The position numbers and the translations under genes were made by a program. Under the pieces are notes generated by a model. That model saw only the letters and a list, made by a program, of their open reading frames with translations. It was not told the DNA's origin and searched no databases. From Treponema sp. (lineage in GTDB: Bacteria > Spirochaetota > Spirochaetia > Treponematales > Breznakiellaceae), in contig WRMC01000003.1 of NCBI GenBank assembly GCA_009777335.1, positions 1-64,000 on the forward strand: 64,000 nucleotides of DNA, written 5' to 3'. Shown here piece after piece: positions 19,102 to 62,690 of this stretch (within the stretch, counting starts at the first letter, position 1; each line of letters starts with the position of its first letter).

Positions 19102-20091
19102 ATGCCAAAGGATTATGAAAATCTATGTGAAAGCATTGACTCAATAGACGAATTAAAGCGTTTAAGCAGGATATCAATTCAAGACCTTAAAAAATATATT
19201 AAAAATACTCTATGTGCCCCGCCGTGGGAAGGATTTAATAACGGTGATATTTCAGATAGGATAAATGAAAGCTTAAATTATTTCTATTGGTTATTTGGTG
19301 GGCATATAGACGAACTAGGAAAATACAGGCCGGAACCACAATACCTAGAAAAGATAAGTAGATTTATAACTGGCTATGTTAAACTTTATGGTGATTTTAT
19401 GGATTCAACCGAATCATGGAAGCCAGAGTATAATGAATTAGTTTGCAATGATAAAAGACTTAAGATGGAAGATTATGAGGAGGGGTACAATACATTCAAT
19501 GAGTTTTTTACCAGGAGGTTAAAAAACGGAAAAAGGCCAATAGGAGAAGGATTTGTCTCTCCAGTCGATGGCGTGATTCAAAACGTACACCCTATAAATG
19601 ATGGGATTGTCGCTACTAAAATTAAATCATCAATTTATCAGCAAATTCAAGAATTGATTCAGGAACCACTAAATAATGGTACTCTAATAAGTCTTTTCTT
19701 AGATGTTTATGATTATCACCGTATTCATGCCCCCGATGACATGACGGTAACGAGTATTCGCAAGGTAAAGGGTGGTAATTTTGTAGGTGGGTTTGTTGAA
19801 TATATCAATGGCAAGTATGTATTAGACAGCTCAGAGTATGGGTGGCAGTCTCTTGAGACCAGAGTTATTGTCAAAGCTTGTAATGAAACCATAGGTAGAT
19901 TTTGGATAGTCCCAGTAGGGATGTCCCATGTAGGTTCTATTGAGATAACCTGTAAAGAAGGAGATACTATTAAAAAGGGAAGTGAAATAGGTTTATTTAA
20001 ATTTGGCGGTTCTTGCGTAGTCATTATTATCGAAGCACCGATTGGAAAAATACAAAAAAAACACTTTTTAATGGGAGAGAGGCTACTATGA
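19102..20091 (+). CDS. psd: phosphatidylserine decarboxylase-like enzyme
   Basis: FNEFFTRRLKNGKRPI, SPVDG, YDYHRIHAP, VGMSHVGSIE, IGLFKFGGSCVVII. Confidence 0.85.
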   Translation: MPKDYENLCESIDSIDELKRLSRISIQDLKKYIKNTLCAPPWEGFNNGDISDRINESLNYFYWLFGGHIDELGKYRPEPQYLEKISRFITGYVKLYGDFMDSTESWKPEYNELVCNDKRLKMEDYEEGYNTFNEFFTRRLKNGKRPIGEGFVSPVDGVIQNVHPINDGIVATKIKSSIYQQIQELIQEPLNNGTLISLFLDVYDYHRIHAPDDMTVTSIRKVKGGNFVGGFVEYINGKYVLDSSEYGWQSLETRVIVKACNETIGRFWIVPVGMSHVGSIEITCKEGDTIKKGSEIGLFKFGGSCVVIIIEAPIGKIQKKHFLMGERLL

Positions 20092-28124: not shown

Positions 28125-28289
28125 ATGGAATTAGGTCCAGCAACGGAACAGGCTATTTTGGTAGCCATCCGCAAGATAGCACATTCCACTGATTACGGGC
28201 AGGTAATAATCAAGCTTGATAAAACCGCCCCTAGGCAGGAAATTGTTATTGAGACTCAGGAAAAAATACGAGTAGAAAAAGAGGCTTGA
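28125..28289 (+). CDS. hypothetical protein
   Basis: RBS gggaggg. Confidence 0.55.
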   Translation: MELGPATEQAILVAIRKIAHSTDYGQVIIKLDKTAPRQEIVIETQEKIRVEKEA

Positions 28290-28313
28290 CAAACTCGGTA
28301 TATATCGTATACT
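28286..28313 (+). promoter_or_regulatory. promoter TTGACA-16-TATACT
   Basis: consensus boxes, same spacing as 43731 and 53918. Confidence 0.8.
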
Positions 28314-28319
28314 GATAAT

Positions 28320-28425
28320 TGGTATTATCGTTGCTGACCGATATGCGGAGGCGACAGTGATCCCATAGGAAACTCAGCTGGAAAACCCAGCCGAACTTCC
28401 CGTGGGCTCATTGTCGCCTTTTTTT
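28320..28425 (+). ncRNA. putative leader/sRNA: conserved TGCTGACCGATATGCGGAGGC block plus long terminator hairpin
   Basis: 21-nt block identical to 43770 region; GGCGACA..TGTCGCC then T7. Confidence 0.6.
28350..28425 (+). terminator. intrinsic terminator with long imperfect stem
   Basis: GGCGACA 28350-28356 / TGTCGCC 28412-28418, T7. Confidence 0.75.
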
Positions 28426-28441: not shown

Positions 28442-29749
28442 ATGAAAATGCTGTATAAAAACAATGCACCACCCCCCGGTGTTGTATACTTTAACTACCG
28501 CACATCGAAGGCTGATCTGCCCGATCCGCAGGGCCTTCCTACACTAATAAAGTCTGAGGCCATGTCTGCCATCACCAGGAACGAAGAAAGCCCCTTGTAC
28601 CGTACCGAGGCCATAGATTACCCCGTAGCAGGTACTGGTGGCATTTATACCGAGGCTTTCTTTGAATCTTTTCTTAACCGCATGAAAGCCCATCCCTTTG
28701 GCGGGAATAAGCTTGGGCATAGTTACCCTGAAAAGAATGACTTTTACACCATCGGTGGCAAGATAGAGAAAAACGGAGATGGAACGGGGACGGTCTTTTT
28801 CAAAATCGTAATACCATCCATGGGCTATGAAACCACTAATTCCGGCTTTATTCGGGACGTACTGGCAGGGAATGTCCATTTCTCTCTTGTAACCCTGCCC
28901 GAATATGAGCTTAGGCAAAATGCCAAGACCAAGGAGATGGAGAAACACTTCGTAAAATCCATTGGAAACGAACGCAACGATGCGGTTCCCTTTGAAGGGG
29001 GAGCCATGCCACAGAGGGTAAGTAATAGCGAATTTGACATTGAGCAGGTAAGAAGTCTGATTGAAAAGGGTCAGATTGATTATAAATCGAAAGGGGATGA
29101 ACTCATTCAGGATGGCCTAGTAACTTATTCCGCATTACGCCGATATGCCGCTAATGCCGATAACCGAACACCCGGACTGACTGACCTCGTATCTCTGGCA
29201 GATAAACTACGAAACAGGAGACATAAAATGGACGATGAAAAAGTCGTAACCAAAGAAGAGGCCATTAAAGTCCTTAACGGTCTTTTTATGAACGGTCTTG
29301 TAACGGTGAAGGATATCCTTGACGGGATAGGCCCCAAGGCCACCGCTTTCCTTCGCAATGAACAGGATGATGCCAATACCGCCCTTGCCAATTCGGTAAG
29401 AGAGTTGCTTGGGGATAAACCCCTGGACAACCTTAAGGTACTGCTTAACACCAAGGCCGAGAACGAAAAGTTCCTGGTACAGAATGCCGTTCGAGCCCAG
29501 GTAGGCACCGAAAGGATTAGCAATGCCAAGGGTGAAGAGGTGGAAAACCCTGCGTACCAATACGCCATGCGTATATGTAACGGCAAGGTAGGGTCTGACC
29601 TTACTGCTGCTCTTGAGGCTCTCAAGAACGATTCGGTCATGCAGACCCTTCTGGCCTCCCAGGCTGACCATCAGTCGGAGTTCAACCGCCTTGAAGGCGG
29701 TGGAAGTGCCCAAAGCAATGCGGCTTCCCCCGCTGTGATGGAGGTGTAA
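28442..29749 (+). CDS. prohead protease fused to scaffold-like C-terminus
   Basis: position upstream of capsid; GHSYPEKN..SLVTLPEYEL; C-terminal helical region. Confidence 0.55.
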   Translation: MKMLYKNNAPPPGVVYFNYRTSKADLPDPQGLPTLIKSEAMSAITRNEESPLYRTEAIDYPVAGTGGIYTEAFFESFLNRMKAHPFGGNKLGHSYPEKNDFYTIGGKIEKNGDGTGTVFFKIVIPSMGYETTNSGFIRDVLAGNVHFSLVTLPEYELRQNAKTKEMEKHFVKSIGNERNDAVPFEGGAMPQRVSNSEFDIEQVRSLIEKGQIDYKSKGDELIQDGLVTYSALRRYAANADNRTPGLTDLVSLADKLRNRRHKMDDEKVVTKEEAIKVLNGLFMNGLVTVKDILDGIGPKATAFLRNEQDDANTALANSVRELLGDKPLDNLKVLLNTKAENEKFLVQNAVRAQVGTERISNAKGEEVENPAYQYAMRICNGKVGSDLTAALEALKNDSVMQTLLASQADHQSEFNRLEGGGSAQSNAASPAVMEV

Positions 29750-43197: not shown

Positions 43198-43689
43198 TTA
43201 AATAACGTCTTTTATCTTATCCCATCTACCGACATCAAAAAAATTAGTTATGCCTAACCCTGTGAATCTGTAAAAATAACCAGTCTTGGCTTGGTTTATT
43301 TTCATATAGACCATTGCTTGTTGTCCACCAGGAGATGCTGCAGCTAATTCGGCATCAAACTCCGATGGATCTAATTGTCTGAATTCATAAAGCAATTCAT
43401 CGGTGTCATAGTTATAGACTTTACCATCTTCTGAGTACGCATTGAATGTTGTTTGTCCTCCTACATTAGGACCAGTAACAGTTGTTTTAGTAAATGTGAA
43501 GTTTATATCCTGCAAAGTCCACGCCCACTGACCTATCAGCACGTCCTCTATCACCTTACTCGGTAGCTGTTCCTCATCAGTGGTATCGGTGGTTGTAGTG
43601 GTATCAGGACCCAGCCCGTCACAGGCGGACAGGAGCAGGGCCATCAGCAAGATGCTTACAATGGTAAAGGTTCTCAGTAGATGTTTCAT
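43198..43689 (-). CDS. lipoprotein (moron-like)
   Basis: MKHLLRTFTIVSILLMALLLSAC lipobox; opposite strand to late genes. Confidence 0.8.
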   Translation of the reverse strand: MKHLLRTFTIVSILLMALLLSACDGLGPDTTTTTDTTDEEQLPSKVIEDVLIGQWAWTLQDINFTFTKTTVTGPNVGGQTTFNAYSEDGKVYNYDTDELLYEFRQLDPSEFDAELAAASPGGQQAMVYMKINQAKTGYFYRFTGLGITNFFDVGRWDKIKDVI

Positions 43690-43730
43690 ACTCTAATTAT
43701 AGCCCAGCCACCGGGATAAGTAAATAGCCC

Positions 43731-43758
43731 TTGACAAAAAAGCCCGGTATGGTATACT
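43731..43758 (+). promoter_or_regulatory. promoter TTGACA-16-TATACT
   Basis: as at 28286. Confidence 0.8.
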
Positions 43759-43764
43759 GGGTAT

Positions 43765-43843
43765 AACGGTGCTGACCGATATGCGGAGGCCCTCAATCCC
43801 CTTGCGACTTTAACCAGTGGCAGGAGGATTGGGGGCCTTTTTT
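43765..43843 (+). ncRNA. putative leader/sRNA with same 21-nt block
   Basis: TGCTGACCGATATGCGGAGGC at 43770-43790 abutting terminator. Confidence 0.6.
43788..43843 (+). terminator. intrinsic terminator
   Basis: GGCCCTCAATCC/GGATTGGGGGCC then T6. Confidence 0.8.
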
Positions 43844-43922
43844 ATTGGCTACCCGCCCAAAATGGCGGGGTTGCACATAAAGAAACGGGGTCTTACAGTT
43901 TTGTCAGAATATGGGGGCTGGT

Positions 43923-44087
43923 ATGCAGGATTTTATTGGATGCGTCAGGCATAAAGGAAAAATATACTGCTGGGACAAAAGGAACGAAACCTTCGTTGAA
44001 ATAGAACTAACTGATGTTCCCATAGAAAATGTCCCCAAAGAAGTTTATTCGGCATTGTTTAACATGATTGGAAAGCAGGAGGGCTGA
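43923..44087 (+). CDS. hypothetical small protein
   Basis: MQDFIGCVRHKGKIYCWDKRNETF; not in supplied track. Confidence 0.5.
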   Translation: MQDFIGCVRHKGKIYCWDKRNETFVEIELTDVPIENVPKEVYSALFNMIGKQEG

Positions 44088-44088
44088 A

Positions 44089-44304
44089 ATGGCTGTATAC
44101 ATGCAATTTAGGGGGTATACCTACGACCCCAAGGACACATACCGGGCTGTTGGGCGGACTATGGAGTGCTGGATTGACACCCTGGCAGATAGAGCCCTGT
44201 TGCCTCAGGTCCCGACCCGTGACTTTGACGGCGGGTCCATAGCCATCTGCAAAGAGACCGATACGACCTACGTCCTGTGGGCCACGGGCTGGGAGGTTCT
44301 CTAA
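44089..44304 (+). CDS. hypothetical small tail-fibre-region protein
   Basis: ORF with RBS. Confidence 0.6.
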   Translation: MAVYMQFRGYTYDPKDTYRAVGRTMECWIDTLADRALLPQVPTRDFDGGSIAICKETDTTYVLWATGWEVL

Positions 44305-47300
44305 TGGACGTAGTAACCCTTAAAGAGGCGAAAAAATATACTGATTCTGTTGCCCTGAATGGGGTGGCTATACAATACCCCAGGGTAAACCCTACCAGCA
44401 AACGCTGGGAGGTCTTTAACTCTTCCACTGGTAACTACATTGATACGGGCGTGGTGGCAGAGGGTAAAGACGGCGTTAACCCCGTTTTCCGTGCTGGCGG
44501 GGCCGAGAACCGTACCCTCCAGGTAAATTACCCGCCTTCACCAGATTGGACTGATATCTACACCTTCCCCGAGGGTGGGGGCAGTATAAACCCTGCTGAC
44601 CTGATATCAGCCGACCCAGACAATACCCTTATCCTTGACGCTCAGCAGAAACTGAAGGTTCCAGCCCAGTCCCCAGGTGGGGGCTTTACCCCGAGTACGG
44701 CCCAGACGGCAGCCATGAACAGCGGGGTTACCGCTGAATGGAAAGGTAACGTAGATACAGCCCTCTCCGCAATAGACATCCCAGAATCACTTGAAGATCT
44801 GAATAACCCCACGGTCAACCCGTTCATTCGTGCAAATGACTTGCCCGACTTGACCCCTATAAACCAAGAGCTGGCCCGGCTGGAAAACGACAAAGCCGAT
44901 AAGGCCGACCTGCCCAATGTCCCTGCTTTGATAGAGGCCCACAATACCAGCGGCACAGCCCATGCTGATATGCGTCAAGATATCAACGATGCCAGGTCTA
45001 TTGCCGAGGGCCGGGCTCAGGCCAAGGTGTTCGCCACCTTTGAGGCTATGGAAACATGGCTTGCCGATCAGGCCAATGCTGACAGCCTCAACGTGGGGGA
45101 TAATCTTTATATCATCGCCCTTGACGTGCCCGATTACTGGTGGGATGGGACCCAGGCCCAGGAACTGGAAACCGAGAAAGTAGACCTGACCGATTACTTG
45201 ACCGAGACCGAGATTGAAAACCTCTTGGCTGGTAAAGTCGATGTAGCAACCTTTATCACCTACCAAGCGGCAGTACAAACCGAACTTGACCGCCTTGAAG
45301 ACGAGAAGATGAACCTGGTGGACAGCCCTGTTGACGGGGAGCTACTTGTCACCGATGCCGATGGTCAGGCTGTAGGCTCAGGCCGTAACTTCGACACTAT
45401 AGCCGATATCCCCCTCGTTAAGGAATACATCCAGCAGGGCCCTAACCAATACCCTACCTGGTACTCCCAGAGTGGACATCACCTAAACCTGGTAGACACT
45501 TACCACATTGCCATGACTATCCCCGGTCAAGGTACTGCTGATTATACCATTAGCAATAAAAAGCCCCTAACTACTAATTCTGGGCAACAGTTTAGACTTG
45601 AATCCTATCAAGGCCCGGTACGCATCATCGCAGAGGGCTACGGCTCTGCATACGAAAACATAGAAATTGAATGGTGTACCCTTGCCTCTGGCGGGGGTGG
45701 AATTGACGATATCAACGATCTGGTATCCGATGAACCAGACAATCGCCTAGAGGTTATCAACGATAAATTCTTTGTAGGCGGGGACGCAACCATAGGCCCC
45801 GATATCAGCCGTGTCTACAACGAACACATAGACGCAGAAAAGAAACGCATTGACGAATTACAACCGGGGGACTTTGTTGTCAGCCTAGAGATGCACGAGC
45901 CTTATGGAGACCCCGGCGGCGGTTCTATAAACTTTGAACATCACGTCATTGAGTTCCAACCCTACGGCGGGGTTATTAGCCTATCTGGTAGTACCCATAA
46001 TGTTGTAATCCGCAGTTTCGGCGATGTGTATACTTCGGTGGTTCCCATTGACGATATCTTTGTTGACGCATCCGGCGACTGGGACAATGTGTTCTACGCC
46101 TATGTGGGCGATCCTGCAGGGCACACGAAGCGGTGGGATAATAGGGAACTGCTGGGGGCTATTAGGGAAATAGACCCAGATGCGGGTGGAAGGAATACTT
46201 TTACTGTTGTTCCTGATTACGCAAGACCGCTTCAAGTTATAGGCACAACAGTAGGCACGCTTGTAACCGTACCCAACGACGGATTTTTACAGGTGGCAGT
46301 TGGGCAAAATGTTAGAACAGATGTGCGGATTAATGGTAGCACCACCGCAGCATTTATTATCGACCCAGCACCGCAAAACTCTACCAGTATTCCTACGCAA
46401 GTAAAAGAGGGCGACACGGTAATGGTAACGATTTCGGGTGGAACGACACCGCAGTATTATGAACTACGCTTATTTTATCCAAGAATCGTATGGGCAACCA
46501 GCGATGCCGCACAATTCCACACTAAACTGATAGGGCCTCCCGATCACGATAACATGGAGAGTATCAATCGTATCACTGCGAACAACGGTGAGTGGAAGAA
46601 TGACATAGGCGATGGGTATATGCTCATTGGCTCTGCGTCTAGTTCTGCCTGTTATGGGCGGATATTTATCAACGATGAACCTTTTGATCAGTTTTATATG
46701 AGTGCTGGATACCTTGCACAAAAAATTGTGCAAGTATCAAAAGGGCAGACTGTCCGCTATAGCATAACTGCCGGAGCAATATCACAGGTAACTGCTAAGT
46801 TTATCCCGCCGAAAGCAACAGCCCCCATAGCCCTTACTGGCGTTGACATGGTATCTAGCACCGAAAAGGGCAAAATAAACCTAGACCCTGTTACTAAAGA
46901 GGCAAGAATCAATGGCCTAGACCCTGATGATCTAGATATCAATACCGATGACCTGGTAGCAAAAGACCAAGGCACCGCCAACGCAGGTAAGTTGCTAGGC
47001 ATAGGCACTGATGGCTTTGTCGCTCCAGTAGAAGCAGAGTTTGCCAGCGGTCAGGGCAGTGTCTATCGTGAGTTTGACCTAACCGATCAACTTGACGGCA
47101 CTAAGACCACGTTTGACATAGACCCCACCATATCCCCCATGAGCATCCTCGCCTTATACTACGCAGGGCAGCGGTTAGTGGTCAACAAAAACTACACGCT
47201 GGATATGGATGCTAAGACAATCACCACGTTATTAAGCACTCCCCCTGACGCATTAGAGGGCAGGAGTTTGATACTGGTGGAGGCATCCAGGGGTGCGGTG

Positions 47301-47651
47301 GGGCCGAGGTTCCAGTCAATAACTGTACCTGGCGGGAATCATACAGTGCCATTGGATATTTCCCAGTACGATACTTTTTATTTACAGAAATCTACCAATG
47401 GAGGAAACACTACTACAATCCCTAATTTTGTAGATTCGGCAGATGCTCCGTTGGGGAAAGAGATCACGTTTATTTTCCAGGTAGTTTCTACTGGTGGTGG
47501 TGTAGCGGGTAATACTACAGGTGTCGTATGGGGAAGTGAGTTTTTTGGTAGAGCCATCCCTGGAATTGGAATGGGAGAACCCATAGGTATCAGACTAATT
47601 AAAGTTGCAAATGGACGTTGGGTACGAATGGCATTTGCATGGTCGGCATAA
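44304..47651 (+). CDS. tail fibre protein
   Basis: 1100+ aa, LKEAKKYTDSVALNG N-terminus, repeats shared with next gene. Confidence 0.7.
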   Translation: MDVVTLKEAKKYTDSVALNGVAIQYPRVNPTSKRWEVFNSSTGNYIDTGVVAEGKDGVNPVFRAGGAENRTLQVNYPPSPDWTDIYTFPEGGGSINPADLISADPDNTLILDAQQKLKVPAQSPGGGFTPSTAQTAAMNSGVTAEWKGNVDTALSAIDIPESLEDLNNPTVNPFIRANDLPDLTPINQELARLENDKADKADLPNVPALIEAHNTSGTAHADMRQDINDARSIAEGRAQAKVFATFEAMETWLADQANADSLNVGDNLYIIALDVPDYWWDGTQAQELETEKVDLTDYLTETEIENLLAGKVDVATFITYQAAVQTELDRLEDEKMNLVDSPVDGELLVTDADGQAVGSGRNFDTIADIPLVKEYIQQGPNQYPTWYSQSGHHLNLVDTYHIAMTIPGQGTADYTISNKKPLTTNSGQQFRLESYQGPVRIIAEGYGSAYENIEIEWCTLASGGGGIDDINDLVSDEPDNRLEVINDKFFVGGDATIGPDISRVYNEHIDAEKKRIDELQPGDFVVSLEMHEPYGDPGGGSINFEHHVIEFQPYGGVISLSGSTHNVVIRSFGDVYTSVVPIDDIFVDASGDWDNVFYAYVGDPAGHTKRWDNRELLGAIREIDPDAGGRNTFTVVPDYARPLQVIGTTVGTLVTVPNDGFLQVAVGQNVRTDVRINGSTTAAFIIDPAPQNSTSIPTQVKEGDTVMVTISGGTTPQYYELRLFYPRIVWATSDAAQFHTKLIGPPDHDNMESINRITANNGEWKNDIGDGYMLIGSASSSACYGRIFINDEPFDQFYMSAGYLAQKIVQVSKGQTVRYSITAGAISQVTAKFIPPKATAPIALTGVDMVSSTEKGKINLDPVTKEARINGLDPDDLDINTDDLVAKDQGTANAGKLLGIGTDGFVAPVEAEFASGQGSVYREFDLTDQLDGTKTTFDIDPTISPMSILALYYAGQRLVVNKNYTLDMDAKTITTLLSTPPDALEGRSLILVEASRGAVGPRFQSITVPGGNHTVPLDISQYDTFYLQKSTNGGNTTTIPNFVDSADAPLGKEITFIFQVVSTGGGVAGNTTGVVWGSEFFGRAIPGIGMGEPIGIRLIKVANGRWVRMAFAWSA

Positions 47652-47663
47652 AGGAGCATAAAC

Positions 47664-49211
47664 ATGGATACAAGATTAAAAGGTAATCAGGTAACTCAGG
47701 AAATAGAAGGCGGGTATGCTCCCCCTCCCAACGGCATACCCATAACCGATCTATCCCCCGAGGTGCAAGAGTTGATCAAAAACGCTGGAGGGGGTGACGC
47801 AGGGAACCACATACGCATTGACGATTTTGAATTCCACCAATCCCAGGGCCATTGGGCTATACGAAGTGATACCCACCAGTTTACCCATGACGAGTTGTAC
47901 CTTATCAATATGCAATACGGTAACCAGGGAGGTACATGGGAGGGCCTAGCGGTCTTTGGTCTAACTAACGATGGGGACTATGCCTATACGCATATATCGG
48001 GATCTAACGGCACCTACGAGTTAGAGTACCGAATCCAGGATGGCGAGATACACTTTGACAATGCCTATTCCAGCGGTTTCTATGGTCATAGCGTTTTTCG
48101 GATAGGTGCCCATGGCGGGGCTGGCAACGGTGGTGAAGGAAAACCGTTTTACAGGTACGATATTTCCGGGCAGTGTAGCGGTGGAGGTGAAAACGGTGCA
48201 GACTATTACAAACTAAGTTTTTCTGTTCTAAGCAAAGAAAAACTGTTTGACATCCCATCTAGCAATATAATCCCCTACGGCAATATAAAGATTGCACTTG
48301 AAGCAGTTGGGGCTACATACTCTGAAAAAGCAATCCCCGCAACTGGGCTTTTTAGGTGGATGCAGAATAACGGCACTGTCCCCTCTTTTACTGGTACAAT
48401 TTATGCGATCTGGTGCGATGATTACCCACAGGTAAGGGTGGCCCGGCATGATAACAATAATATCGAAATCCGCAATCTTAATTTTACCAGTAACTCATTC
48501 CACGCAACCGAGACCATCATCCCTGCTGGTGGGGGTGGGGCTGGCATAGACGATGTAAATGACCTAGTAAGCACTACGCCTAATAATCGGCTGGAAGTAA
48601 GGGATGATAAACTCTATGTAGGCCCCAGTTATATCCTCCCGCAAACTGGAATCCCCATATCCGATCTATCACCCGAAGCAAGGGATAAACTGGAACAGGA
48701 AGAGAACACCGATGCCATGACCAGTTTTTGGCAGGGTAGCCTTGTCACCTTAAAACCGAATGAGAACCTAATGGCAATGACCGGGGGCCTCCAGTACGAG
48801 GTTACCTTTAACGGAGTGCCTAACTCTAAAGACATCGATCTGCAAAGTCATTTAATACTTGACAGTAAACTTTTTGACCCTGTAGATGAATTGTTCGGTT
48901 TCAACCCCGGCGATACTTACTCCAGCCTAGAATGGATGTTCCAGGAAATTCACAATTACTGCGAGCAGTACGGGCCATTTGATTATGATAATTATGACGA
49001 TCAGAATATCTATGACTATATGACGCAGATTTTTGAAATGCTAAACATCATAGACCAGATCAATCCCCGGCTCATGAGTCTTAAAATGGACTTTAGTTAC
49101 AGTGTGGAAAACTCAAGCAATCCAGTAACCGTCATGCCCCTGGGTATCTACGGGTCAAAGGGATCTAACTTAATGCTCATTCCGCACATTAAAACAGTAG
49201 GGAGTTTCTAA
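47664..49211 (+). CDS. tail fibre-like protein
   Basis: shares GGGG-IDD(I/V)NDLVS-NRLEV module. Confidence 0.65.
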   Translation: MDTRLKGNQVTQEIEGGYAPPPNGIPITDLSPEVQELIKNAGGGDAGNHIRIDDFEFHQSQGHWAIRSDTHQFTHDELYLINMQYGNQGGTWEGLAVFGLTNDGDYAYTHISGSNGTYELEYRIQDGEIHFDNAYSSGFYGHSVFRIGAHGGAGNGGEGKPFYRYDISGQCSGGGENGADYYKLSFSVLSKEKLFDIPSSNIIPYGNIKIALEAVGATYSEKAIPATGLFRWMQNNGTVPSFTGTIYAIWCDDYPQVRVARHDNNNIEIRNLNFTSNSFHATETIIPAGGGGAGIDDVNDLVSTTPNNRLEVRDDKLYVGPSYILPQTGIPISDLSPEARDKLEQEENTDAMTSFWQGSLVTLKPNENLMAMTGGLQYEVTFNGVPNSKDIDLQSHLILDSKLFDPVDELFGFNPGDTYSSLEWMFQEIHNYCEQYGPFDYDNYDDQNIYDYMTQIFEMLNIIDQINPRLMSLKMDFSYSVENSSNPVTVMPLGIYGSKGSNLMLIPHIKTVGSF

Positions 49212-49212
49212 C

Positions 49213-49950
49213 ATGAAAAGCATATTTGACAAATTAAAGGGCACGAAAAACGTACTTAAAAGTTATAGGGAAGGGCTGGAACTACTGGAGGCCCAGAGTA
49301 TCGAGGCCAAGGACTTTGACGATACCTTTGTGATTGAATCGAAAGATATCAAGTGGTCATTCCCTATCGTTGCGAGGGCCATAAAGAAAAGGCAAACGAA
49401 ACTCATAGTATACGAACCCCAGGGCCCAGAGGTTTTTTGCGGAATGCAAGGGGACTATGTAAACCGGGAATACTGCGAGAAAAACGGCATTGCTATTACT
49501 CCATTCCCTACGCAGGGCGGGGCTTTGGTCTGCGATAAGGGCGATCTACTACTGGTATTCATCCATCCAGCAAGAAGCGGGGAGTTTAAGTTTCTCGACC
49601 ATGTTAAGTCCCTAATCCTCCAGTCCCTGCCCTCTTCTATTCCCATTGAAGAAATCACCATGCCGGGGAATGACATCCTGGTACAGGGCAAAAAACTATC
49701 CGGCTCCACCACTACAGTTAGGCACGGCTCCATCATCGAATCCATTTTTATCAATGGGGTGAATAGCCAGAAACACTTAGAAGCAGTAGGCCATAAAGCG
49801 GGGAAGCTCAGGGAAGTGATTAGTCTAACTGAACTGGGAAGAAACCCCGAAGAGTTTAGAACCATGCTCATTGAACTAACCGTTGAATCATACGGACTAC
49901 ATAACCATTACAAAAAGGAAAAGGGAAAAGGAAAGAATCGAAAGGGTTAA
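49213..49950 (+). CDS. LplA/biotin-lipoate ligase fold-like protein
   Basis: PTQGGALVCDKGDLLLVFI and GNDILVQGKKLSGSTTTVRHGSIIESIFI resemble LplA motifs. Confidence 0.55.
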   Translation: MKSIFDKLKGTKNVLKSYREGLELLEAQSIEAKDFDDTFVIESKDIKWSFPIVARAIKKRQTKLIVYEPQGPEVFCGMQGDYVNREYCEKNGIAITPFPTQGGALVCDKGDLLLVFIHPARSGEFKFLDHVKSLILQSLPSSIPIEEITMPGNDILVQGKKLSGSTTTVRHGSIIESIFINGVNSQKHLEAVGHKAGKLREVISLTELGRNPEEFRTMLIELTVESYGLHNHYKKEKGKGKNRKG

Positions 49951-49965
49951 GATTTGGGGGTAAAG

Positions 49966-50604
49966 ATGGAAGTAGCAGAAACAGTTAAGAACCTGGCCCT
50001 GTTCTCTGGGATTGAATTGTTTTTAATTATCATTCTAATTTTTGCAGTCATTCTCATGATCAAACTAGGGCCTAAGTGGCTGGATAAACGATACCAGTAT
50101 AAGATGGCAGAGTTGAATCAAGAGAACCAGCACATGGAAATTGAAACCAACGCCATGGTAAAGGAAGTAGCAACGAGGCTGGACCGCTTGGAAGAATCAA
50201 CGCTAAAGGTGCAGAACCAGTTTGCAGAGGATGCTGAGGAAAGAAAAGAACGGCAAGCCCAGATGGATTCTAAGTTTGAGTCCATTGATTCTGAGATAAA
50301 AAACATATTCGCCATATTCGCAGACCACGAAGAATTTGCCAAAGACACGTCACGGGGCACCCTAGAAAACATGGTCTGCAATGATACGGTGTCCCCTCTT
50401 AGGCGGTTGAAGGCGTTCCGGCGGTTACTGGCTATGGGGGTCAACGGCATTATCAAGCAACGGGGAATGAAGATTGTCCTTGACCACAAAGACCTCTGGC
50501 TTGAGGTGTTAGCCATGGACATGGGCCTTAAGGTTATAAATCAGGACTACTACGACCGGGTCATGGACGAGATACGCAAGAGTATTTACGGGGGGGTGAT
50601 GTGA
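49966..50604 (+). CDS. membrane-anchored coiled-coil protein
   Basis: N-terminal TM plus coiled coil. Confidence 0.6.
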   Translation: MEVAETVKNLALFSGIELFLIIILIFAVILMIKLGPKWLDKRYQYKMAELNQENQHMEIETNAMVKEVATRLDRLEESTLKVQNQFAEDAEERKERQAQMDSKFESIDSEIKNIFAIFADHEEFAKDTSRGTLENMVCNDTVSPLRRLKAFRRLLAMGVNGIIKQRGMKIVLDHKDLWLEVLAMDMGLKVINQDYYDRVMDEIRKSIYGGVM

Positions 50605-50939
50605 TGGAAGAAGATAAGAATGGCGAAGAATCAACGCCAGAAAAATGGAGCTGGGACGTATTCAAAATAAAGACCTTCTGCTGGCGGAACTTTATCTGGT
50701 TTATTTCCACCTCTTTCGTGGCAGTCATGCTTTTCTTGTCTAACGGTGACATTGACAGCGTGGTAAATATCATACTGGCTGGAGTGTGGGGGGCCTTGTC
50801 TATCATCTTGGTACTGCATAAAGCCTTTGAAAAAGCCGTGGGCAATGCTCAGATAAAAGCCGAGTTAAACACCAGTATGCAGTTAAATGGGGAGATGTCT
50901 TCCATCATCAAGTCCATGGCAAAAAAAGGGGAGGCGTGA
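50604..50939 (+). CDS. holin-like membrane protein
   Basis: two TM segments, directly before endolysin candidate. Confidence 0.55.
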   Translation: MEEDKNGEESTPEKWSWDVFKIKTFCWRNFIWFISTSFVAVMLFLSNGDIDSVVNIILAGVWGALSIILVLHKAFEKAVGNAQIKAELNTSMQLNGEMSSIIKSMAKKGEA

Positions 50940-51428
50940 ATGAACGATAAAGCACAACGGGTCATTGAAGCAGTTGAGCACGTCATAGCCATGGAAGATG
51001 TCCAGCCGGGCTATCCCGATGCCAACGGGAATACCAATACCACCTGGTGCAACAGGGCCTTACACCGGGTGCTGGTCATGCTGGGGGCTCAGGCGGACCT
51101 GATACTTGAGCCCAAGGGTATCAACTGGACTACCGCCAATCGGATGGTTTTGCAGGCTCGTGCCACCCTAGGCCGACAATTAAGCCCGGTGGAGGCCCAA
51201 TGCCGTGCAAATGATGGCCTGGTAGTCATTGCCATGGCCCATAACCCTAATGGCTCGGGCCACGTTGAGACTGTGTTGTTTGATACCGAGACCTTCCGGG
51301 CCGATAGGGGTTGCCGGGTAGGCGGGGCAGGTAAGACCAATGGAATAGGCTATGTCCGGCCCAGGTTTGCCAATTTAGAGGTTGAGTATTACATTGTGCC
51401 ACCCCTGAGCGGCGGTACGGCGGATTAG
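50940..51428 (+). CDS. endolysin candidate (NlpC/P60 or CHAP-like)
   Basis: NTTWCNRAL Cys and GSGHVETV His; lysis position. Confidence 0.5.
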   Translation: MNDKAQRVIEAVEHVIAMEDVQPGYPDANGNTNTTWCNRALHRVLVMLGAQADLILEPKGINWTTANRMVLQARATLGRQLSPVEAQCRANDGLVVIAMAHNPNGSGHVETVLFDTETFRADRGCRVGGAGKTNGIGYVRPRFANLEVEYYIVPPLSGGTAD

Positions 51429-51548
51429 GAGGCTTTATGTTTGAGATAGGTATGGAGAAGAGGTGAGGATAGGAAAGTGGTATAGGATCTGGCCTATCCA
51501 GCATCATCCAAAGCAGATCCTGAGGGCCTTAGGGGAAAGGAAGGTTAA

Positions 51549-51947
51549 ATGAATGCAAATAAGGTTCTTATTGTTAGTTTGTGTGTTATCTCTGTTTTTT
51601 CCATCTTCTATGGTGTTCACCAGCGAGTCCGATACACTGAGTTACAAAGCACCCTCGAGTCAGTTAACGCAGGAGAATTACAACGGCAACTTGGACTCGT
51701 CAACGCAGAACTTGAGCGAGCCCGTGCCGAACTTGCTGAGTCTAGAGAGTCCGTGGAGCGACTTGAGGGCGTTGATAGCAGACGGCTTGCAGGGATTGAG
51801 CGAATCGAACGAAGCGTTGAGTCAATTGGAAGAGGAATTGGGTCTGCTCAGGGTGGAAACGAGCGAGCAGAGATTGCTATACGAGGAATCGCAGAGATTG
51901 TTGACATCCTTGAGGCTGAGTTTGGACGAGGCTCTCTGGGCGATTGA
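51549..51947 (+). CDS. Rz-like i-spanin candidate
   Basis: N-terminal TM plus coiled coil; RBS aaggaagg. Confidence 0.5.
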   Translation: MNANKVLIVSLCVISVFSIFYGVHQRVRYTELQSTLESVNAGELQRQLGLVNAELERARAELAESRESVERLEGVDSRRLAGIERIERSVESIGRGIGSAQGGNERAEIAIRGIAEIVDILEAEFGRGSLGD

Positions 51948-52215
51948 CGTGGCGGTTGATCGTATGGAGGATGCTGAGGCTTATGCGTGGTGGGTCGAGT
52001 CTCAGTACGAGGTGTTAAGGGCCCAGGCAAGGCAATCAAGGCGGTCGGGGCCTGTTGGACTGGCTTTCGGTGGTGTTTCCTTCGGGGTAGGGGTTCCTCT
52101 GATAGTGGAGGGCTTACGTTCCGATAATAGGACAATGACCTGGGCTGGGGCTGGAGTTATTACTGGTACAGGGATAGTATGGGCAGCCGGGCATTATATC
52201 TTCCAGTGGTGGTAA
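51553..52215 (+). CDS. overlapping-frame membrane/coiled-coil protein
   Basis: starts 4 nt after 51549 ORF, contains it entirely; signal-like N-terminus, two C-terminal TMs. Confidence 0.55.
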   Translation: MQIRFLLLVCVLSLFFPSSMVFTSESDTLSYKAPSSQLTQENYNGNLDSSTQNLSEPVPNLLSLESPWSDLRALIADGLQGLSESNEALSQLEEELGLLRVETSEQRLLYEESQRLLTSLRLSLDEALWAIDVAVDRMEDAEAYAWWVESQYEVLRAQARQSRRSGPVGLAFGGVSFGVGVPLIVEGLRSDNRTMTWAGAGVITGTGIVWAAGHYIFQWW

Positions 52216-52221
52216 TAAATG

Positions 52222-52241
52222 GAGCGAGTTCGCTCTTTTTT
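52222..52241 (+). terminator. intrinsic terminator after lysis cassette
   Basis: GAGCGA-GT-TCGCTC TTTTTT. Confidence 0.75.
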
Positions 52242-52310
52242 CTCCTTTGGCCTGGGTGTCAAGTGTCAGCTTGACCCCAGTTTTTTTTAATTAATTTTTA
52301 ATTAATATGC

Positions 52311-52339
52311 TTGACAAATAGGACAAAATGTCCTATATT
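52311..52339 (+). promoter_or_regulatory. promoter TTGACA-17-TATATT overlapping 17-bp palindrome TAGGACA-AAA-TGTCCTA (52319-52335)
   Basis: read directly. Confidence 0.8.
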
Positions 52340-52423
52340 ATAAGTATAGGCTGAATAAGCCAAGCCCGCCTGTATGGGAAGGGCGAAACTGGAAGGCCCA
52401 ATCGAGGCCAAAAGGAACCTACC

Positions 52424-52771
52424 ATGGATCTTAAATTCTACGCAAAATCCGAAAAACAAAGGGACTATGCAATGTCCTACATTAATACCTGGTTAAGTAT
52501 AGTTGACCAGAGTATTGCGACCGCAGAACGCCGGATGGGGTATGAAGAGGAAAAAGAAGAAGTAAAAAACTGGGAAGCATGGATTAGAACTGCCGAGAAT
52601 GGAAAGCAATGGATTATTGATACCGTAAACACAATGGATGCCGGGCAGATCATCGAATATGGTAAAATGACAAAGGGACTTGGGGAAACAGTAGAAAGCC
52701 AATGTCGAATTGCGTATAAGGCTTGTAAGCCCATGAATAATTTCCAAAAAGCAGAAATTATTTACATCTAA
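52424..52771 (+). CDS. hypothetical protein
   Basis: ORF after repressible promoter. Confidence 0.65.
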   Translation: MDLKFYAKSEKQRDYAMSYINTWLSIVDQSIATAERRMGYEEEKEEVKNWEAWIRTAENGKQWIIDTVNTMDAGQIIEYGKMTKGLGETVESQCRIAYKACKPMNNFQKAEIIYI

Positions 52772-52785
52772 TAGGAGTAAATACC

Positions 52786-53349
52786 ATGACCATACTCGAA
52801 GGAAAAAAAGAACGGATAAAAGAAGCTAGGGAAAGTGGATATAGATATTTGTCCTATACCTATTCCACCCTACAAGATGCCAGGGAACAATCGGGGTCCT
52901 TCGCTGTGGCCCATGAGGATAGTACGGCAAAATGGACAGAATCAGATATCATAGCCGAGGATCAACTCTACACTTGTTGCATCTATGACCTTGAGGAAGG
53001 CGAAGGGAAGACGGTATTGGTAGTGGAAAGAGGAGAAACTGCCGAATCCGCCAAGGAAAAGGCTATGGCGGAATTAGCAGGGATTCTGCTGAGGGGTAAA
53101 ATTGATCATTGGATGGATTTTAATTCGGTAAAAATCCTCTCAAAGAATGAGGATGTTTTAATGGGGGAGCAATTAAGGACTTGGCTATCTAATAATAACT
53201 TAAGTCAAAATAAAGCAGCAGAATTATGCTCTGTCACCCCTCGGACCTTCCGGCGATGGGTACTAGGTAGGCCCTCGATGCCCCAGGGTATGTGGGAATT
53301 ATTGCGTATTAGGGCAAGTAAGGTGCCAGCTAATAACGCCGATAATTAA
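52786..53349 (+). CDS. protein with C-terminal HTH
   Basis: LRTWLSNNNLSQNKAAELCSVTPRTFRRWVLG. Confidence 0.7.
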   Translation: MTILEGKKERIKEARESGYRYLSYTYSTLQDAREQSGSFAVAHEDSTAKWTESDIIAEDQLYTCCIYDLEEGEGKTVLVVERGETAESAKEKAMAELAGILLRGKIDHWMDFNSVKILSKNEDVLMGEQLRTWLSNNNLSQNKAAELCSVTPRTFRRWVLGRPSMPQGMWELLRIRASKVPANNADN

Positions 53350-54063: not shown

Positions 54064-54137
54064 GGGCCCCTAGCTCAGTTGGTTAGAGCAGCAGACTCAT
54101 AATCCGCGGGTCCTGTGTTCAAGTCACAGGGGGCCCA
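54064..54137 (+). tRNA. tRNA with CAT anticodon (Met or Ile2)
   Basis: 7-bp acceptor GGGCCCC/GGGGCCC, D stem GCTC/GAGC, anticodon loop CTCATAA, T arm CTGTG-TTCAAGT-CACAG; no encoded CCA. Confidence 0.9.
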
Positions 54138-54613: not shown

Positions 54614-56947
54614 CTATAGGCCATAGTAGCTGTCCGACTCGTTCAGGTAATGTACCTTGTCGGTATCTGCGTTATACCAGATGGGGTAGCGGAGGACTCC
54701 CCCCTGGGAGGCGCTGGTCCCAAGGACGGTGGCTCCATCCATGTAGACCTGCTTTCTAAGGTCAGGGTTAGCGGCATTCAGATGGATCTCCCAGGGGTTA
54801 AACCAGAACTTGCCCACATTCTGGGAAAGGACGGGGTTTACCAGGCCGCTGCGGGAGTAGCCTATCATGTAACCCAGTTCCTTCTTCCCAAAGTAGAGGA
54901 CATAGCCGTAACCCTTTTTGGGCATGGGGACGGTGACATCTACGTAGCTGTTCACCACATCCTTGGCCAGGGAGATCACATGGGCAGTTCCGGCATCTAC
55001 CAGGGCGGTAAGGCGCTGGCGGGGGCCGTTGGGGTCATCCCCTATAACAATGTTGTTGTTAAAGTAGTTGGTCCCGGTGCCCCACTTGCGGCTCTCGTGG
55101 AAGGCGGTGGCAAAGGGCACTCCCGTCTTCCCGGTCCGGTTCACCATGACCGAGGGGTAGGTGCTGACCGGCTCTTCTACAAAGACCAGCCGCTGGAGGG
55201 CCCTGGCGCTGAGGCCCGTATGGAAGATCCGCAGGGTGATGGTTTCGCCCAGGTTGATGTTCCCTGTGGGGTCCTCTATGTCGGAGCTGTTCAAAGTGAT
55301 GCTCCGGAGGTTCTGGTCGGGCCTTAGGTTGGGGAGGCCCGTGTCGGGATGCAGGCCCGGGTGCAGGGCTGCGGGGTAGATCTCCTTGCGGATCTTCAGG
55401 GTTTCGCCCTCGTTGGGGCCTCCCAGGCGGCGGACCAAAAGTTCTGCTTCGAAGCGGGCTCCGGGCAGGATAGGCATCCCTATGCTGCTTAGGACCAGCA
55501 CCGACGATGAATATCCCGGAGGGGTGCCCTGGCTTTCACCCCAGCTGTTACTGTCATAGGAGGTGGCATAGTGACGATCGGTGCTGTTCCGCACGATGAG
55601 CCCCATGATGGCCACCGCCGAGTCCCCGGAAGTTCCGTTCACCAGGGTGATCACGGCCCCCACGGTGGACTCTATATTCAAATCCCAGGGGTTAAGGATA
55701 ATCTCGTAGACATGGTCGTAAAGATAGACCAGCCGCTCCACGCTCCCCGAACCGGCCGCCGACTCCAGATCGATCTGGGCCAGGTACTGGTGGTGGGGCT
55801 CTATGGGAAAGCCCAGACTGTTTTTCTCCTGGGGTATGCCTATGACCTCCACATAGCCGGTTTTGCCGTAGGTGATGGGCCTGGAGGGGCTAAAATGATC
55901 CTCGTAGTCCAAATAGAGGGGGTCCAGCTCGGGCCGCCGGAGATTGTGGATGCTAATCCCCGTGACTATGGCCTCGGTGTTGTTGGTGATCCGCAAAGCA
56001 CCCCGCCCCTGACCCCAGCGGTCTGGGGGCAGAAGGTCCTCGGCCAAAGAATCATCGGGGTAGGGGGGCCATTCCTGGCTCAGTTCGTAGTGTTCCCGGG
56101 TGGTCTTGTAAAAGTTCATGTAATGTTCCCGGATGGCCTGGGGGTCATTCGATGGCACCACCACCGCGTTTTTGGCCCCTGTGGTAACCCCCAGGCGGTT
56201 GATGGTGTAGTTCACCGTGGTCTCCCAGGTACCTTGACCCAGGGCGATGGACTGGCGGTCCCGGACATTGATGGGCCCCATGCTGTAACTGCGGCCATCG
56301 CTGGCCTTAAAACTTACCCCGTCGATGATCTGGCTGGATGAACGATTCACCACCACGTAGGTGGCCATCTGGGTTCTATTCTCCGGGGGGATGATGGCCG
56401 GGCTTGAGCCTTCACCCAGAAGGGGGTCATCTCTAGGCTCCGCCGTATCGGCTGGATCGGGGTTTAGCAGCTCCCGGCCTATGATTACCTCCCCCTGTTG
56501 GTTCCGGTAGACATAGATGGCCACCACCTCCCGGGGAAGGGGCAGGGGAACGGTGATTTCCCCCTGGCCTTCCAGGCCCTCCCTGGTCCTATAGCTAAGG
56601 CTCACCGAATAGGTGATGTCACTGGGGGGGAGGTACTGGGCCCGCCGCTCCAGGGCCCGGGGCCTTTCGGTGAAGGACCACCAGGGCTTCTGCTGGCCGT
56701 AGTTTTCGGGCCGGCTGTCCCACTCGGAAGCATCATAGGTGATATAGACATGCTTTACATCCACCGTCTTTGAGACATTGGAAATAAGCAGAACCGCGCT
56801 GGTAATATCGGTAACCGTAAAGTTACCCTCTACCTTAAGGGAACCATCTCCGCTTAAAAGGCTGATGGGGTCCAGACAGGAGCTAAACCCAAAAAGTACC
56901 GCGCTTAATAAGATGGTTTGCACAAATGTTTTTGCCCTATTTTTCAT
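54614..56947 (-). CDS. large lipoprotein, paralogue 1
   Basis: LFGFSSCLDPISLLSGDGSLKVEGNFTVTDITSAVLLI. Confidence 0.8.
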   Translation of the reverse strand: MKNRAKTFVQTILLSAVLFGFSSCLDPISLLSGDGSLKVEGNFTVTDITSAVLLISNVSKTVDVKHVYITYDASEWDSRPENYGQQKPWWSFTERPRALERRAQYLPPSDITYSVSLSYRTREGLEGQGEITVPLPLPREVVAIYVYRNQQGEVIIGRELLNPDPADTAEPRDDPLLGEGSSPAIIPPENRTQMATYVVVNRSSSQIIDGVSFKASDGRSYSMGPINVRDRQSIALGQGTWETTVNYTINRLGVTTGAKNAVVVPSNDPQAIREHYMNFYKTTREHYELSQEWPPYPDDSLAEDLLPPDRWGQGRGALRITNNTEAIVTGISIHNLRRPELDPLYLDYEDHFSPSRPITYGKTGYVEVIGIPQEKNSLGFPIEPHHQYLAQIDLESAAGSGSVERLVYLYDHVYEIILNPWDLNIESTVGAVITLVNGTSGDSAVAIMGLIVRNSTDRHYATSYDSNSWGESQGTPPGYSSSVLVLSSIGMPILPGARFEAELLVRRLGGPNEGETLKIRKEIYPAALHPGLHPDTGLPNLRPDQNLRSITLNSSDIEDPTGNINLGETITLRIFHTGLSARALQRLVFVEEPVSTYPSVMVNRTGKTGVPFATAFHESRKWGTGTNYFNNNIVIGDDPNGPRQRLTALVDAGTAHVISLAKDVVNSYVDVTVPMPKKGYGYVLYFGKKELGYMIGYSRSGLVNPVLSQNVGKFWFNPWEIHLNAANPDLRKQVYMDGATVLGTSASQGGVLRYPIWYNADTDKVHYLNESDSYYGL

Positions 56948-57065
56948 ATTGTCCTCCAAGGTAAAGTTTACTATTTTAGTAATCTTTACAGCTTGAATTT
57001 ATAAAATTTCGGGCCCCTGTGCACTAGTTTTTTGAAAATTTTTTACTTTTTTTTTGGAAAAAAAA

Positions 57066-57087
57066 CCCCCGGGCCAGGGCCCGGGGG
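57066..57087 (-). terminator. intrinsic terminator
   Basis: CCCCCGGGCC..GGCCCGGGGG plus T8 on - strand. Confidence 0.85.
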
Positions 57088-57112
57088 CGGGGATATTAGA
57101 AAGCTCTCCTTC

Positions 57113-59395
57113 CTAATAGGTCAAGGTAAAGCCGAACTGGGGATTCCTAAAGGGGACCCCTCGAACGGCAGTGACTATCCCAAGGAACTGGTTCGCCACC
57201 GAGTAGTGGCCGCTAAAGAGGATGATCTCGTCCAGGGTGATATTGGGCAGGAAGCCCACCGGGGTAGTCCCCGACAGGGACCGCCCGTAGTTGATCCAGG
57301 CCGCCAGGTGCACCAGGTTGGGGTTGGTCATGCTGACCCCTCCGCTCAGGGTGGTTCTGTAGCGGTTACTAACGCTTACCCTAAGGACCCCGTAGTGGGA
57401 TCCCACCACATTCCCCCGGCCATGGGCCCCCACCGGAAGGCTGGCTATATAGGCCGCCGCTCCAGGTGAACCGGTTATTGCCCCCCCATGGAGCCAGTCG
57501 ATCTGGACTATATCGGGGATCTCCACCGGGAGCCTGCTCTGGGACCAGACCAGGTTCTTGTTGGTGGCATTATGGGGAAGGATCTCGATAAGGAAATCCT
57601 GGTACTGAACATCTGTAGCCGTTGTGTTGGCAGTCCGGGTCACGGTCTGAACCTGATTTGATTGGGAAACCTGCCAGGTTCCAGTACTGCCCAAGCCACT
57701 CCTCCGGGCTATGATCCGGACCGATTCCACGGGGACAAAGACGCCCCCGGGGCCCCCGGAACAGTTACATGTAGTACAGGTACAGGTCCCGCCATTACTG
57801 CAGTTACAGGTGGTGGAGCCCGGGCAGGTACAGCTTCCGGTGCAGGTGCAGGTGCCGCCATTGCTGCAGTCACAGGTCCCCGGGCCGGGGCAGGTACAGG
57901 TGCCCGTACAGGTACAGGTCCCGCCGCTGCCGCAGGAGCAAGACCCCGGACAGGTGCCGCCGCCGCAATTACTGCAGGTACATTCCCCGGTGATGGTACA
58001 GCCGCAGGATCCCTCGCATCCGCAGTCACATTCGGGGGGAGTAATGACCTGACCGTTCTCTATGGCCCACTTAATGTCCGCATCGGTAATGATGAGATCA
58101 ATTGTGTCCCCTAATATAAAGTTCCGGCCAAAGTAGCGGACTATGACAAAGCCCCGGCCGTTATCATGGCGCATGTCCCTCACATAGACATCCAGGGTAT
58201 AGGGGGCGAAGTTTTCTATCATGAAGGCGCCCCCCGCCGCATCGGCGGTGCTTCTAAAGATTGCTCTTTTGGCATCCCTGGTCCAGGAAATGCCGCCCCC
58301 GCCTATGACCCCGCTGAGGATAAAGTCATCGGAGGGGATAAAGGACACGGGGACCGTGGCTCCCACCGGCGGGACGGGGTTATAGTCCCTGCTGGCCGCA
58401 ACGGCGTAGATATAGGTATTGGGCACCGCCGAGTTAAGCATCCGGACATGGACCGCCGTTGTATCCCCATGGCGGGAATCTTCGGGGTCCCTGTTTGGCG
58501 GCGGCCAGCTGCTCCCCGGCCGGGTTTCAAAACCCCCGCTGGTGTTTTTATAGAAGTAGAGGTAGTGATCCCGGGAGGCCTGAGGGTCATTGGAGTTGAC
58601 CACCGTAATGGTACTGACCGAACTCATCTGGTTGCCATTGACCGTATAGTTTACCCTGGCCATCCACTGACCGTGGCCCAAAGCTATGGCCAGGTTGTCG
58701 TTCATGGTGATGGGCCCCATGGCGTAGTTCCGGGAGCTATTGGTCAGGTTGACAAAGTAGATGCTGTCTATGTTCTGGGAACTGGAGGTATTGGCCACGA
58801 TGAAGGTAGAGAGCCTTCCGGCATTCCGGGCCGGGATGTCCGGCGGGGTCGAACCTTCGCCCTCGAAGGGGTCGTCCAGGGGGGTCCCCGTATCGTTGGG
58901 GTCCGGGTCCACCGGCTCATGGGGGCTTATGATCACCGACCCGTCCCGGTGGCGGTAGATCCATATATTGTAAATTTCCCGGGGAAGGACCGCATTGACC
59001 GACACGGTCCCCGTGCCGTTGGAGCCGTCCCTAACCCGGTAATCAATGGTTACCTGATAGGTGATATCCGTGGGGGGAAGGTACTGGGCCCTTCGCTCCA
59101 GGGCCCTGGGACGGCCCGTAAAGGACCACCAGGGTATGGGGTCCGTGACCCCCGGGTTGTGGTCCTTCCATATATCTTCGATATAGGTGATATGGACATT
59201 GGTGACATCCACGGTCCTGGACAGGTTGTTGATCATGAGGACCGCACTGGTAATGTCGGTGAGGGTAAAGTGGCCTTCCATGCGAAGGGCCCCGTCAGGG
59301 GCCAGCAAGCTTATGGGGTCTAAACAGGCAGACAGGCCAAAGAGGAGGCCCAGGACCAAAAGGACCAGGGCCAGGCGATGTACGCTAGGTTTCAT
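57113..59395 (-). CDS. large lipoprotein, paralogue 2, with Cys-rich CxC linker
   Basis: LSACLDPISLLAPDGALRMEGHFTLTDITSAVLMI; Cys-rich central segment. Confidence 0.8.
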   Translation of the reverse strand: MKPSVHRLALVLLVLGLLFGLSACLDPISLLAPDGALRMEGHFTLTDITSAVLMINNLSRTVDVTNVHITYIEDIWKDHNPGVTDPIPWWSFTGRPRALERRAQYLPPTDITYQVTIDYRVRDGSNGTGTVSVNAVLPREIYNIWIYRHRDGSVIISPHEPVDPDPNDTGTPLDDPFEGEGSTPPDIPARNAGRLSTFIVANTSSSQNIDSIYFVNLTNSSRNYAMGPITMNDNLAIALGHGQWMARVNYTVNGNQMSSVSTITVVNSNDPQASRDHYLYFYKNTSGGFETRPGSSWPPPNRDPEDSRHGDTTAVHVRMLNSAVPNTYIYAVAASRDYNPVPPVGATVPVSFIPSDDFILSGVIGGGGISWTRDAKRAIFRSTADAAGGAFMIENFAPYTLDVYVRDMRHDNGRGFVIVRYFGRNFILGDTIDLIITDADIKWAIENGQVITPPECDCGCEGSCGCTITGECTCSNCGGGTCPGSCSCGSGGTCTCTGTCTCPGPGTCDCSNGGTCTCTGSCTCPGSTTCNCSNGGTCTCTTCNCSGGPGGVFVPVESVRIIARRSGLGSTGTWQVSQSNQVQTVTRTANTTATDVQYQDFLIEILPHNATNKNLVWSQSRLPVEIPDIVQIDWLHGGAITGSPGAAAYIASLPVGAHGRGNVVGSHYGVLRVSVSNRYRTTLSGGVSMTNPNLVHLAAWINYGRSLSGTTPVGFLPNITLDEIILFSGHYSVANQFLGIVTAVRGVPFRNPQFGFTLTY

Positions 59396-59480
59396 AAATT
59401 CCTCCATGGAAGAGTCCCGCTGCCTCTACTCCCTATCCTCTTGCAGCCTTCGGTGGAAACTCCCCCTTAAGGGTTAAAAA

Positions 59481-59505
59481 ACCCGGCAGCCTAAGGCTGC
59501 CGGGT
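59481..59505 (-). terminator. intrinsic terminator
   Basis: ACCCGGCAGCC-TAA-GGCTGCCGGGT plus T-run on - strand. Confidence 0.85.
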
Positions 59506-59517
59506 AAGAACTACAAA

Positions 59518-62496: not shown

Positions 62497-62690
62497 GTTC
62501 TCCTCCATATCAGCACAAATTATTATGTAAACTATGGCAATCTTTACATAGGGTATCTACTATATATAGACCACTCCCACCTTTAAAATATATAGCTTTA
62601 CAGGTCCGATGTCAATGTTTTGGCCAAAAAAAACCCCTTTTCTTTAGGGTCATTCTATGCTAGTATCCCCCTCATAAAGGTGGAATGTCT

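Follow-up and report, generated by a model that had tools for sequence, protein, structure and literature searches.

An apparent hairpin–terminator switch ahead of capsid and tail genes in viruses of spirochaetes and other hosts

How capsid genes are activated in phages outside the lambdoid model is, to our knowledge, largely unknown, and nothing on this step in the uncultured phages of termite-gut spirochaetes was found in the literature searched. The question is raised here by a 64,000-nt stretch of a Treponema sp. contig, referred to as the window, at which a preliminary description had placed a promoter, a 21-nt block and a terminator at 43731–43843. All three were present to the base, as was the identical block at 28332 with a different stem behind it. 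The two elements, denoted copy 1 (28.3 kb) and copy 2 (43.7 kb), are listed with their parts and neighbouring genes in Table 1.

Table 1. Coordinates of the two elements in the window and of the genes next to them
Feature	Position	Strand	Remarks
DUF2292-like protein gene (54 aa)	28125..28289	+	Directly upstream of copy 1; candidate trans factor
Copy 1, whole element	28286-28425	+	Architecture as copy 2: promoter, block, terminator
Copy 1 promoter, sigma70-like	28286..28313	+	TTGACA-16-TATACT; 11/12 match
Copy 1 block	28332-28352	+	Identical to copy 2 block
Copy 1 antiterminator hairpin (predicted)	28333..28352	+	Outer stem extends to GTT 28330-28332 / GAC 28353-28355
Copy 1 intrinsic terminator	28349..28425	+	Stem AGGCGACAGTGA/TCATTGTCGCCT, unlike copy 2; T7
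First gene of head unit behind copy 1	28442..29749	+	Protease/scaffold-like by position; before 123-aa and 404-aa proteins
Copy 2 promoter, sigma70-like	43731..43758	+	TTGACA 43731-43736, 16-nt spacer, TATACT 43753-43758; TG before -10; 11/12 match
Copy 2 block	43770-43790	+	TGCTGACCGATATGCGGAGGC, 21 nt
Copy 2 antiterminator hairpin (predicted)	43771..43790	+	GCT-GA-CCG-ATATG-CGG-A-GGC; from folding and covariation
Copy 2 intrinsic terminator	43787..43843	+	Basal 5' arm GGC common to hairpin; T6 43838-43843
Late unit behind copy 2	43921..53349	+	Right end provisional; small ORF from 43921, then 1124-, 515- and 245-aa and further ORFs

Allowing up to 3 mismatches, the block was found only twice in the window and never in 100 dinucleotide shuffles. 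A dispersed genomic repeat, which had been named earlier as the finding that would speak against a transcriptional role, was rejected, since the whole 2.16-Mb genome held no third copy. With 2 mismatches, three matches were detected in the genomes of the host family, about as many as expected by chance, and those inspected had no promoter and terminator; exact 16-nt matches in other contigs (L008, L010–L014) and matches in genome contigs (L037–L042) lacked the promoter/terminator arrangement as well and were taken as chance. The folding z-scores of the two elements were -6.2 and -7.5, with no shuffle equal to either, and the best two promoter-like sites between 26.0 and 43.9 kb were the promoters of copies 1 and 2 (11/12 each). 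No other convincing plus-strand terminator was seen from 28.4 kb to 43.7 kb. The terminator of copy 2 pairs GGCCCTCAATCC (43788–43799) with GGATTGGGGGCC (43826–43837).

The presence of the same 21-nt block twice in one phage might simply reflect copying by recombination between two late promoters, the units being constitutive terminator insulators with strong promoters. This is very unlikely, given that the flanks and the terminator stems of the two copies are completely different and that the same structure recurs, with compensatory changes, in phages having no detectable capsid genes in common.

The proposed placement before separate late units held at both sites, as copy 1 precedes head genes and copy 2 precedes a second late unit. 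No family match was obtained for the first gene of the head unit. On the other hand, the naming of the second unit as a tail-fibre operon found no support from homology: the 1124-aa and 515-aa proteins and those that follow had no tail match in PHROGs or Pfam, nor did the 1124-aa protein in NCBIfam or phage records.

Other genes of the phage-like region include several of metabolic type, namely a lipoate-ligase-like gene within the second late unit (49213–49950, with a match to the lipoate-ligase domain), a phosphatidylserine decarboxylase (19102–20091) and a UDP-glucose/GDP-mannose dehydrogenase (15878–16654), as well as two different single-strand DNA-binding protein genes (2487–2876 and 13271–13642). 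Between the late units, on the minus strand and divergent from the 43.7-kb promoter, lies a lipoprotein-like 163-aa gene (43198–43689) that has a separate promoter-like site at 43724 and resembles the cargo (moron) genes of lysogens. A tRNA-Met (54064–54137), perhaps the attachment site, sits at the right end of the region, and past it three very large minus-strand genes were identified (54614–62508), one with RCC1-like repeats.

The block itself folds as an RNA hairpin with an outer stem GCY/RGC, an asymmetric GA/A internal loop, a 3-bp inner stem and a loop that begins with A. It was first seen as GCY-GA-CCG-ANNNN-CGG-A-RGC, and the general formula is GCY-GA-NNN-ANNNN-NNN-A-RGC (~20 nt); in copy 2, extra pairing of GG 43768–43769 with CC 43791–43792 is possible. 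Two other readings of this region were rejected: an upstream hairpin, ATAACGGT/ACCGATAT, predicted by MFE folding of the 43-kb copy, is not kept in L007 (an IMG/VR phage contig), and for a leader peptide, TTG/GTG-CTG-ACC-GAT-ATG-CGG-AGG, the wider set of copies keeps no start or codon pattern, the pattern being RNA-type.

In an alignment of 37 copies, 95.4% of the cells were paired, with 16 double-sided changes, a level of pairing reached by none of 500 shuffles and by no slid register. A fourth outer pair was missing in 8 of the 37 copies (and in 13/36 of the wider set), and the Y/R position had no standard pair in four of the 37. The wider set (alignment A8) showed at least 25 double-sided changes, with the middle inner pair seen as C-G, U-A, G-C and A-U; as it was partly picked for full inner pairing, the unbiased test is the scan that left the inner stem free. 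Among the 89 matches listed from that scan, a flush terminator was present in 15 of the 18 with full inner pairing vs 10 of the 71 without (Fisher p 5e-8), and a DUF2292-like gene lay in the locus of 8/18 vs 0/71 (p 6e-7). Apart from CCG/CGG, the inner stems CUG/CAG, CGG/CCG, CAG/CUG, UCG/CGA and GCG/CGC were found in the same frame among the matches listed, and because the inner stem changes by compensation, it is the structure that is conserved.

Outside the window, two IMG/VR phage contigs that encode relatives of the 440-aa protein behind copy 1 (77% and ~65% identity) have the element at the equivalent place (L007 at 7929 and L003 at 5345), and L007 has a second copy at 16242, directly before a large gene homologous to the tape-measure protein of the window. 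The 43-kb site has relatives too, as the genes upstream of copy 2 are matched by upstream genes of L068 (34%) and L070 (31%). Of the more remote relatives of the 440-aa protein (L027, L028, L030, L032 and L051), most had no promoter–terminator unit, and BLAST of one copy against phage records retrieved none. A pattern that left the loop free and required a terminator, and neither promoter nor GCY, gave 22 stretches in IMG/VR, nearly all of them genuine units that have a terminator and, in most cases, a promoter. With covariance model R1, further copies came to light in phage-like contigs, both from the family to which the host belongs and from one other family in the same phylum, the element being otherwise rare within the phylum sample. 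In contigs of phages and prophages, at least ~50 additional copies were obtained by the relaxed searches. Two copies each were found in the window, in L007 and in L069, and four in IMGVR 3300027864_000006, three of which have the CUG/CAG stem. The earlier claim of a functional leader/terminator RNA element was thus supported: the unit turns up in unrelated phages, where the structure of the block is kept and the sequence of the terminator stem is free to differ.

The same GA/A hairpin was also observed immediately past the 3′ end of host tRNA genes and ahead of a conserved, structured leader (L094–L098, L102, L105, L106, L109, L114 and L115), at about 1501, or 668 / 556, with the covarying outer stems AGCU/AGCU, GACU/AGUC and GCCU/AGGC. 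In L106 the gene that follows is a tyrosine-recombinase-like integrase, and no obvious terminator is present at such sites, so the hairpin may have a role independent of the overlap with a terminator described below. Such hairpins possibly serve to control integrase at the att sites of elements in these hosts.

A sigma70-like promoter (≥10/12), which no search had required, lies upstream of 29 of the 37 copies vs 4.5% of shuffles. The distance from the -10 box to the hairpin ranged from 9 to 51 nt (median 19) in class-1 copies, and this variability favours a site in RNA over one in DNA. In L158, L198 and L219 the hairpin begins 3–11 nt past the DUF2292-like ORF with no visible promoter between them, which indicates that the element can work inside an operon.

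The order of a late promoter directly followed by a terminator that late expression must read through is that of lambda pR′–tR′, and an element of the lambda Q type, in which paused polymerase receives its antiterminator from a binding site within the late promoter, would account for it. The site bound by lambda Q is DNA and lies inside the promoter itself (PMC6606751); here the block is found 9–51 nt downstream of the -10 box, at a distance from the promoter that is not fixed, and its variation is by RNA-type compensation. In place of a DNA site, the signal would be an RNA hairpin, present at several late units, and a Q-type DNA element seems extremely improbable.

The preliminary description had treated the block and the terminator stem as separate parts; both are present, but the three bases that end the block (GGC) lie within the stem. 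The first sign that the block end belongs to two alternative pairings came from the second copy of L007, in which it reads GGAAGC rather than GGAGGC and the 3′ arm of the terminator changes from GCC to GCT, paired G-to-A and C-to-T changes that preserve both hairpin and terminator. The RGC of the outer stem forms the basal 5′ arm of the terminator in 37/37 class-1 copies, 32 called by script and 5 from printed folds as the script had taken a later T run; this overlap was partly imposed by the search for the pattern-found copies, and model-found copies were put in class 1 for having a terminator. As the RGC is common to both stems, the hairpin and the full terminator are mutually exclusive. Recurrence in unrelated phages speaks for the proposed selection on the block plus the terminator structure, but the block is not a plain sequence: it is a hairpin, and the 3′ strand of that hairpin doubles as the terminator's foot, so that the unit would be an antiterminator/terminator switch.

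The terminator state was predicted to be ~3.5–10 kcal/mol more stable in most copies for which the script found the right terminator, and a factor would therefore be needed to hold the hairpin. With the hairpin formed, the terminator foot loses just 2–3 nt in most models, which might weaken termination rather than abolish it.

A dominant terminator behind a promoter and a 5′ hairpin also resembles a free-standing small RNA gene, which would give a trans-acting RNA of ~60–100 nt with readthrough being incidental. We consider a small RNA family improbable, as several copies occur per phage, each before a gene start, as the outer stem covaries with the terminator arm, and as the copies 3–11 nt behind the DUF2292-like ORF in the three contigs above have no promoter of their own in sight.

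Reading the architecture, the overlap, the covariation, the promoter and the gene neighbourhood directly from the sequence, we think it likely that each copy acts in cis to attenuate transcription of a phage late unit, with antitermination setting in once the hairpin is held by a trans factor. The promoter would fire toward the late genes, and the nascent RNA would make the short hairpin first, should it form in vivo as predicted. In the default state the terminator would win, and transcription would end after ~60–100 nt with release of a short RNA. A factor made earlier in infection would bind the hairpin by way of the GA/A internal loop and the A that opens the loop; with the hairpin held, the foot would be withheld from the terminator and its remaining stem would no longer abut the U tract. 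The switch would then go in the direction of readthrough, the terminator being disabled and the polymerase continuing into capsid or tail genes. The DUF2292-like protein, encoded in the operon upstream, may be this factor, and one factor switching several late units at once would explain the several copies per phage.

Alternatively, the hairpin could be a loading site for processive antitermination, at which it recruits a factor or, in a put-like manner, contacts RNA polymerase itself, so that the modified polymerase ignores local and later terminators and the overlap is a compactness device. The position of the hairpin at the 5′ end of transcripts possibly 10–15 kb long, the tRNA-adjacent hairpins without a flush terminator and the running of the first operon of the window into the terminator of copy 2 are in line with this. 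It is nevertheless rather unlikely, as the register of hairpin against terminator is fixed in every class-1 copy, and as the late unit has no internal terminators that would demand processivity.

For the attenuator that we favour, the DUF2292-like protein is the leading candidate for the trans factor, as yet unproven. Its gene lies 3–540 nt upstream of the hairpin, mostly <110 nt, in at least ~25 loci, and encodes a protein whose sequence is conserved over ~45–55 aa, including a G in YGxITI. The 54-aa protein of the window matched the family profile with E 4.6e-17, that profile including the sequence itself. Alone it had no match to DUF2292 (PF10055), to which the best family member scored 20.3 bits (E 4e-4) vs the Pfam gathering score of 22 bits. 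Its AlphaFold model was moderate (pLDDT 79, pTM 0.48), no sequence relative was found in PDB, and the literature searched on DUF2292/YezD gave nothing useful.

Searching from the protein (profile A5, family genomes) revealed further diverged promoter, hairpin and terminator units in L246 and L249. It also revealed a second hairpin variant, AUGGAAGAACCAAGG, just past the DUF2292-like gene in the phage-like contigs L248 (G115) and L256 (G144), with UGG-AAGAA-CCA between the outer arms GUGC/GCGC or GAGC/GCUC, behind a promoter and before a terminator; it may be the same switch in a second specificity class. DUF2292-like genes in L240, L245, L247, L251 and L252 had no element and, conversely, several copies of the element had no DUF2292-like gene nearby. 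A tandem pair of DUF2292-like genes followed by a terminator, with no recognisable element, was observed in L250/L255 (G139). That DUF2292-like proteins are RNA-binding antiterminators, forming with the GA/A hairpin-terminator a two-part master switch of late genes across phage lineages, is a tentative proposal that we hold to be possible, though short of probable.

Lambdoid boxB is a 15-nt hairpin with a GNRA-like pentaloop that is bound by the arginine-rich N protein. Like it, the element is a small GA...A hairpin near the 5′ end of a phage transcript, and P22 boxB (GCGCU-GACAA-AGCGC) resembles GCU-GA-[stem]-A-RGC. The loop of the element, however, holds an extra 3-bp covarying stem-loop and its stem overlaps a terminator, which sets it apart from boxB. 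The likeness to the BglG/LicT RAT is that a short upstream hairpin and the 5′ foot of an intrinsic terminator have bases in common and that a bound protein would, as we propose here, tip the balance to readthrough, but the element has another sequence and other internal loops and serves phage late genes rather than sugar operons; no CAT-domain regulator was seen with it. HK022 put RNA, of ~70 nt and two stem-loops, acts without a dedicated protein (PMC9378689). Like put, the element would be a 5′ structure of nascent RNA that antiterminates in a phage, and it is one ~20-nt hairpin fused to a terminator in place of two stem-loops. Antitermination in mobile elements is also known from conAn (pLS20), which pairs a protein with an RNA, and canT (Tn916), which is hundreds of nt long; both are processive, and the available portions of PMC8955417 and PMC11658703 describe no overlap with a terminator.

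Rfam 15 identified only the tRNA in the whole window, with all matches of the element far under the gathering thresholds. The bglG-cis-reg model gave 19 bits vs 80 for L066, and the window copy was not listed. A match of the Rfam trpB motif to L066 (32.9 bits vs 59), carried by the terminator and the U tract, was rejected. Neither Rfam nor the literature searched, whose coverage was incomplete and makes this provisional, holds a description or a family for the element. An antiterminator/terminator switch is of a known kind, and the RNA family, its repeated use at late genes and the linked protein appear to be new.

The element offers a compact, testable answer to how late genes are activated, seen across phages that have no detectable capsid genes in common, and a sequence signature for finding late operons in metagenomic phages. 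If true, the antiterminator reading would also give a function to DUF2292, an uncharacterised bacterial family.
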